Shown: in pieces, positions 57,914-57,979 of the stretch | Layout: each line of letters starts with the position of its first letter | Numbering within the stretch: the stretch's first letter is position 1 | From: an uncultured Bacteroidota bacterium | GTDB taxonomy: Bacteria; Bacteroidota; Bacteroidia; Bacteroidales; F082 | Assembly (NCBI GenBank): GCA_913009685.1 | Contig: CAJVXP010000005.1 | Span: 1-64,000, forward strand | Direction of reading: 5' to 3' | DNA length: 64,000 nucleotides | Program-made: the position numbers and the translations under genes | Notes under the pieces: model-generated | Told to the model about the DNA's origin: nothing | The model's input: the letters and a program-made list of their open reading frames with translations, nothing else | The model's database searches: none

Positions 57914-57979
57914 GTCAAATAATGGTCAAACGATAGTCAAACAGTTGTCAAACAATGATCAGACAGTTATCAAACAATT
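57914..57979 (+). repeat. 11-bp tandem array, copy 2, upstream of ligA
   Basis: Six successive 11-base units begin at 57914, 57925, 57936, 57947, 57958 and 57969. Consensus GTCAAACARTT; the last two begin with A. After it, TCCGCC pairs with GGCGGA (57981-58008) and two further related units (GTCAGACGCTTTGCT, GTCAATCAGTT) follow to about 58038. No spacing error occurs across the six units. Confidence 0.9.

Follow-up and report, generated by a model that had tools for sequence, protein, structure and literature searches.

The 64,000-nucleotide stretch of DNA analysed here (the window) carries three arrays of an 11-bp unit that belong to a family of intergenic tandem repeats. This family has a defined unit grammar, a strict 11-bp period, a patchy spread across genomes, conserved sites and a polarity with respect to genes: arrays tend to follow stop codons in the sense orientation and, in that same orientation, to avoid start codons. 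The three arrays and the features around them are as follows, with the strand of arrays 1 to 3 being the one that reads GTCA.

57914..57979, plus strand: array 1, six 11-bp units in the spacer between ligA and an arginine deiminase gene, antisense to both genes
55857..57902, minus strand: ligA (NAD-dependent DNA ligase), the gene adjoining array 1
57980..58009, no strand: imperfect G+C-rich inverted repeat adjoining array 1, read from the sequence
58012..58048, plus strand: degenerate extra units beyond array 1, among them GTCAATCAGTT and a GTCAGACGCTTTGCT unit of 15 bp
58055..58148, plus strand: 7-bp array of CTTTTAA/CTTTTGC/CTTTTTA, whose end is 3 bp away from the deiminase stop codon (minus-strand gene)
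37660..37729, minus strand: array 2, five 11-bp units (two of them degenerate) and one 15-bp unit
59978..60036, plus strand: array 3, one 15-bp unit and four 11-bp units
60046..60080, plus strand: 7-bp array of TTCATTC, whose end is likewise 3 bp away from a stop codon, that of gene 60084-61199 (minus strand)

The start codon of ligA is 11 bp away from array 1. An earlier note on this DNA had described this array as six units of the type GTCAAACARTT at exact 11-bp spacing. The number and the spacing of the units stand, and the letters do not: exact GTCAAACARTT is present in one unit out of six, the remainder being variants such as GTCAAATAATG, GTCAAACGATA and ATCAGACAGTT, and the unit is better written GTCA-DD-C-RR-T-N. 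Array 2 is located between rplI and a SpoU-type methylase gene, with GTCA on the minus strand, in sense to its minus-strand neighbours; its last two units are the degenerate ones. The start of the methylase gene is about 130-140 bp away, and array 2 is thus not directly ahead of a start codon. Array 3 lies 30 bp ahead of the start codon of a tRNA-editing-domain gene (59435-59947, minus strand). A 15-bp unit, GTCATTCGCTTCGCT, occurs once in array 2 and once in array 3, where it breaks the 11-bp register. With one mismatch allowed at most, the unit was matched 13 times in the window, compared with a mean of 4.69 in 100 shuffles, none of which reached 13, and Tandem Repeats Finder assigned a period of 11 to arrays 1 and 3. 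In an Rfam scan of the window, the gathering-score matches were seven tRNAs only, none of them at the arrays. Shorter words are also repeated in this DNA. The 7-bp array at 58055..58148 is purine-rich when read on the deiminase message strand, and 8-bp arrays (TTTTCACC, AAGGTTGG and others) are found at 41725-42180 and 42909-43063, on both sides of the gene at 42201-42878.

The refined unit consists of a 7-base core, GTCADDC, and a 4-base linker, RRTN. When pairs of cores were counted in eight genomes with the linker letters left free, 893 were spaced by 11 bp, 45 by 10 bp and 14 by 12 bp, and the exact spacing claimed earlier was therefore confirmed well outside the window. Backwards-pattern controls in the same genomes gave 6, 15 and 13 pairs at 11, 10 and 12 bp, respectively. 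Because of these control counts, we regard the 12-bp spacing as background and the 10-bp spacing as a small real minority, in which the cores are mostly separated by a three-base linker (e.g., ATT, ATG, ATA).

As the loci had been found with an 11-bp pattern, only units outside the three-unit seed were scored for the unit profile (736 units from 157 arrays, each position being judged by the other ten). Positions 1, 2, 4 and 10 showed one base in 92-93% of these units. The core cytosines were the least kept of the core letters, with 82% for C7 and 75% for C3 (T in 15% and A in 8% at position 3). In the linker, position 8 was A in 65% and G in 30%, position 9 was A in 46% and G in 46%, and C was found at position 11 in 4%. 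An earlier profile, seed units included, had given 94-99% at five fixed positions and 89-93% at position 3, a sharpness that was partly built in by the 11-bp search pattern. The period thus proved strict and the core more variable than the first profile had suggested, two results that pull in opposite directions. At positions 5-6, genomes outside the genus of the window mostly have TT or TA, and those within it AA, GG, GA or TT.

Adjacent units resembled each other little or no more than units taken at random: the neighbour-unit likeness was 0.659 versus 0.650 after shuffling (sd 0.0065; 77 arrays), a value that 20 of 200 shuffles reached. The larger first set gave 0.684 versus 0.657, with no spread computed. 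Some local duplication within arrays does exist, and one long array (L094) has a threefold repeat of 33 bp. In appearance, an array is a chain of similar cores joined by almost freely drawn purine linkers, and the 11-bp unit looks constrained, with most core letters kept and a nearly free mixture of A and G at positions 8-9. Among the orthologous pairs listed, changes in four (L163/L188, L237/L393, L134/L191, L100/L108) amounted to 0/83 in cores versus 141/1911 in flanks, and to 2/18 in the cores of the pair formed by the window and L106; the pairs were selected by eye, and intact cores are more readily detected as arrays, so that we place no weight on this comparison.

The genome from which the window comes (2.11 Mb, 64 contigs, 88% complete) contains 28 matches to the two-unit pattern and 39 to the refined GTCADDCRRTN dimer, with no match to either pattern read backwards. 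The three arrays proposed in the earlier note are real and form a family. In the stretches of this genome that were covered, 15 strict arrays were mapped. The products of the flanking genes include LigA, PolA, a SpoU methylase, a serpin, a rhomboid protease, a peptidase M28, an FAA hydrolase, a UbiA prenyltransferase, an FtsX-type permease and a POT transporter; no gene class is prominent, as judged by eye only. Arrays adjoin both ligA (57914-57979) and polA (L073), perhaps by coincidence.

The refined dimer was detected in 26 of 295 sampled Bacteroidales genomes, our own counted, with 1 to 247 matches per genome, while the backwards control matched once in all 295 together. Presence was patchy inside genera, for example with 0, 17 and 0 matches in g91 and 0, 31 and 0 in g64. 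A looser pattern used earlier, in which A was forced at position 8, was set aside: many of its matches outside the genus were chance-like, and its backwards control matched in many genomes. A scan of named genomes returned at least 119 matching stretches, at least 19 of them outside Bacteroidota. Genome-wide sets outside this phylum were found in three Synergistaceae (10, 11 and 11 dimers) and one Desulfobacterales (45 dimers), and an Ignavibacteria bin had 5 dimers. Castellaniella, Arthrobacter, Nevskia, Syntrophus, Microcoleus and Pirellulaceae had 2 or 3 dimers each, which may be chance or unrelated repeats. Backwards controls were zero in the outside genomes that were searched whole. Contamination is possible for the matches outside the phylum, as many of these genomes are metagenome bins. 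By eye, three Synergistaceae loci (L145, L125, L171) contain GTCAAACRRTN units beside units with another core and the same linker (for example CTGAGCAATGG, CTGAGCGGTCG and CTGAGCAATTG in L145), as if the RRTN linker outlived changes of the core.

Relatives also hold arrays at orthologous sites. The ligA gene was found in 11 of 12 genomes of the same genus, and its spacer contains an array in four of these 11: the genome of the window (G000, AA-type units), G002 (mixed), and G003 and G004 (mostly TT type), the contig of G003 ending inside its array. In G011, this spacer holds an apparent relic of an array, and in G008 (L278) an 8-bp word, TAATGTGN, whose eighth base takes all four letters; the spacer was without an array in G001, G005, G006, G007 and G010. 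The second site is the region after elbB. This gene was found in 108 of 119 genomes, of which 50 were examined and 58 left out (43 of these belonging to genus g14). Two or more strict units were present in seven of the 50, in tandem just past the stop codon in G012, G346, G367, G035 and G032, which represent three genera, and scattered in G004 and G010, from our own genus. Other 7-bp words occupy the same place in G005 (GGAAGTN-type) and G380 (CAAAGAC-type). The sites outlast the words. Copy number does vary: two contigs of one metagenome bin (L136 and L154), 99.5% identical over 212 aligned bases, differ by exactly 33 bp, i.e., three units, and they are the one clear contig pair with such a unit-step difference.

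The position of the arrays relative to genes was analysed with genes called by a simple dicodon model, and gene boundaries are thus approximate. Among 219 distinct arrays, one lies inside a predicted gene; this array and 38 at locus edges were left out, which gives 180 with both flanks. Keeping one array per spacer and merging three pairs that share a 60-base stretch, we obtained 154 Bacteroidota spacers. Arrays whose GTCA strand continues the message of the left gene lay within 60 bp of its stop codon in 49/71 cases (median 37 bp), versus 23/90 in the antisense case, and arrays whose GTCA strand points towards a start codon lay within 60 bp of it in 2/64 cases, versus 31/83 in antisense. In convergent spacers, the array was closer to the gene to which it is sense in 23 of 23; in divergent spacers, it was closer to the gene to which it is antisense in 13 of 16. 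In tandem spacers, where arrays sense to both genes (48) and antisense to both genes (67) occur in similar numbers, the array was closer to the left gene in 42/48 and 40/67 cases, respectively. A second set of 48 spacers gave the same directions (sense versus antisense: start codons 0/19 versus 9/24, stop codons 16/24 versus 7/29), although its tandem contrast alone was not significant (p 0.21). Its arrays are new, but many of its genomes had also fed the first set. The p values for placement overstate independence, because the genomes are related. The placement counts for the 154 spacers omit six loci outside Bacteroidota (L195, L196, L201, L219, L221, L228), whose removal takes out four both-flank arrays and leaves the conclusions unchanged; thirteen other loci outside the phylum were outside the context counts from the start. 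The six loci are included in the 219 and 180 arrays above and in the counts given here for opposite-strand cores, folding, hairpins, YC dinucleotides, promoter boxes, columns of 7-/8-bp arrays and the larger neighbour-likeness set. Placement before start codons, as described in the earlier note, is not supported as a rule. Two arrays of the window, 1 and 3, are indeed near start codons, but both belong to the antisense class, in which such closeness is common.

Arrays of other short words served as a control. At the same loci, arrays of period 6-10 (mostly 7 and 8), oriented by their purine-rich strand, likewise follow stop codons: a stop was found within 60 bp in 39/59 cases in purine-rich sense orientation versus 7/30 in antisense in the first set, and in 8/13 versus 0/8 in the second. 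No clear avoidance of start codons in sense was observed for them (9/59 versus 7/30, and 3/20 versus 6/15). When ungapped 7-/8-bp arrays were considered wherever they lie, all variation fell within three columns in 19 of 24, and seven of the 24 reached p<0.05 singly, which is a hint of a fixed-core pattern. As the stop-codon bias is shared, the polarity need not reflect a factor reading GTCA, and the GTCA arrays are one word of a wider class of tandem words that follow stop codons. The GTCA arrays are set apart by their unit grammar, by a period of 11 bp and by keeping away from start codons.

No description of the 11-bp unit was found among the open-licence full texts listed. The STRR heptamers of cyanobacteria are short tandem words in spacers, from which the GTCA arrays differ in period and unit grammar. 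Nevertheless, the statement of the earlier note that no described element has this form was too strong. The available part of one report describes direct repeats of the heptamer TAACTGA in Beggiatoaceae, Cyanobacteria and some Bacteroidetes, with a patchy distribution and an unexplained function (PMC4679880). The GTCA arrays resemble them in several respects, as far as that part of the report goes: both are mostly intergenic short direct repeats, patchy over distant phyla including Bacteroidetes, both change length by unit steps and are mixed with other short words (heptamers in the TAACTGA case), and in both cases relatives have shorter spacers free of repeats (PMC4679880). In contrast with the invariant heptamer described there, the unit is here 11 bp long, and its core is kept while its purine linker is degenerate; also, the majority of the TAACTGA repeats in the Beggiatoaceae genome lie just upstream of start codons (PMC4679880), while GTCA arrays in sense tend to follow stop codons and to avoid start codons. 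BrickBuilt, a minisatellite/MITE of Porphyromonas gingivalis, is likewise an intergenic tandem repeat at about 19 sites of a Bacteroidales genome, but in the accessible text it has a 23-nt unit with a leader, a tail and inverted-repeat ends (PMC4596501), and no such ends were found for the GTCA arrays among the spacer matches listed. With head-to-tail copies of a word, intergenic location at many sites, unit-step length and a unit that is not a heptamer, the arrays are a variant of the short intergenic tandem repeats and not a member of the TAACTGA family, from which they differ in unit length, degeneracy and placement.

We tentatively favour, as a possibility short of an even chance, a direction-dependent element at transcript ends, whose core is read by a factor and which ends or insulates the transcript. 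This reading is favoured because of the kept core, the exact period and the directional placement past stop codons taken together. The arrays would represent one family of words in a class of short tandem arrays filling Bacteroidota spacers; whole units come and go, and the period and most letters of the core persist. The GTCA strand would be the message strand just past the stop codon, and a putative factor would read the core, in RNA or DNA, as transcription leaves the gene. If the arrays are themselves transcribed, as we suppose, the effect could be to end the transcript or to insulate it. Against such an element, the tandem spacers show no surplus of the orientation that would be useful (48 versus 67), and, within the core, the cytosines are conserved least. 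No binding factor for the arrays was found. Terminator hairpins were predicted at 1/45 sense-array 3' ends versus 37/277, and the detector, which also scores 20/179 on the control strand, says little here. The Bacteroidota -7 promoter box was absent from both strands of all 144 arrays.

In probability, a neutral origin comes close to this transcript-end element. The arrays would then be non-functional short tandem repeats, similar to STRR, rebuilt by slippage or recombination, and their placement would reflect least harm or mutation linked to transcription. Several observations agree with it: one and the same spacer can carry another word in another species (as the ligA spacer does in G008, and the elbB region in G005 and G380), presence is patchy within genera, the near-identical contigs differ by exactly 33 bp, and the 7-/8-bp arrays give a hint of fixed cores. 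The stop-codon bias, common to unrelated words, is also better explained in this way. However, the unit grammar is explained worse. Neutral copies should vary everywhere, with local similarity and with insertions and deletions, whereas variation in the arrays is mostly at set positions, purine for purine at positions 8 and 9, the period is rigid and neighbouring units show little similarity. Also, the units after elbB persist across genera. Functional arrays would mean that a major bacterial phylum has a transcript-end signal that has gone unrecognised. Neutral arrays would be a repeat in which most of the core and the exact period are kept and the linkers are almost freely mixed, something that ordinary slippage would not lead one to expect. 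In both cases, polarity and unit grammar allow a clear test.

The transcript-end reading can be extended, although we consider the extension unlikely, to a word code of Bacteroidota, in which arrays of short cores with free linkers would be read one way by a dedicated putative factor and would end or insulate transcription, the species differing in the words (GTCADDC, TAATGTG, GAAGT, others) that they hold at the same spacers.

Loading of the Rho factor is an improbable explanation. In sense arrays, UC dinucleotides would recur at 11-nt steps in RNA that is free of ribosomes past the stop codon, and the location past stop codons fits. Yet Rho would need neither the remainder of the core nor a rigid period of 11. 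The utilisation rules given in the consulted parts of two reports, a C at intervals of 11-13 nt (PMC6407284) and YC dimers separated by 9-13 nt (PMC9160355), find their counterpart in the sense arrays, which place C or YC at steps of about 11 nt past the stop codon. Accordingly, the density of spaced YC was 10.5 per 100 nt in sense versus 2.6 in antisense (144 arrays). A rigid period and the rest of the core, which the arrays have, do not belong to these rules as far as the same parts state them. The rule further demands an excess of C over G, which 41/144 sense arrays show (103/144 do not), versus 87/144 in antisense. The C of the UC dinucleotide, C3, is also the least kept letter of the core (75%).

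Helically phased operators before start codons, bound on one face of the DNA by a repressor or an activator, come slightly behind Rho in our estimate. The earlier note had reasoned from a spacing close to one helical turn, and both the strict 11-bp period and the closeness of two of the three window arrays to start codons are consistent with this idea. The arrays as a class are placed otherwise, with 2/64 near a start codon in sense and 49/71 within 60 bp past a stop codon, and the 15-bp units break the register. The helical-turn argument is weakened, and is not needed, since arrays of period 6-10 lie near stop codons in a similarly strand-specific way and those of 7 and 8 bp give a hint of fixed cores. 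The interpretation offered in the earlier note is, taken as a whole, partly supported.

It is very improbable that the arrays act as structured RNA or DNA by forming long hairpins with copies in the opposite orientation. For 25 of 126 arrays, the right-hand side of the spacer held at least two cores on the opposite strand, and the density of such cores was 4.46 per kb on the right versus 0.62 on the left; nevertheless, 101 of the 126 arrays were without such a partner, and the folding of single arrays was weak (mean z -1.28 in sense and -0.52 in antisense, 122 arrays each). Positions 8-9 are purines whatever positions 5-6 are, in units that were partly preselected. Pairing inside the unit, between RR and positions 5-6, was rejected for the reason that RR is still purine when positions 5-6 are AA or GG. 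By eye, the opposite-strand cores in the right-hand spacer part of L147, L200 and L207 are separated by differing small self-pairing hairpins (for example AATGAC, GCGAAGC, AATGAC).

The least probable explanation is that the arrays are ends or cargo of a mobile element, either a MITE or a cassette with a four-helix-bundle gene: the distribution is patchy and a PF05635-type gene adjoins the elbB array (within 200 bp at L129, L137 and L183), but 2.9 million viral contigs gave four matching stretches, and the masked array spacers of G000 and G004 share, among the matches listed, low-complexity words and one motif of 19-24 bases. No common ends with inverted repeats, as expected of a MITE, were seen among these listed matches. 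As for the cassette, 30 PF05635 loci were examined out of 90 matches in ten genomes, over at most 3.3 kb, and a strict dimer was present at four of the 30, two of which are the elbB locus. Both the MITE and the cassette were rejected. In the array spacers of G004 (L094, L099), a recurrent motif, GGCAGGGATGGAAGCGGCA, is common to the loci and unrelated to the arrays.
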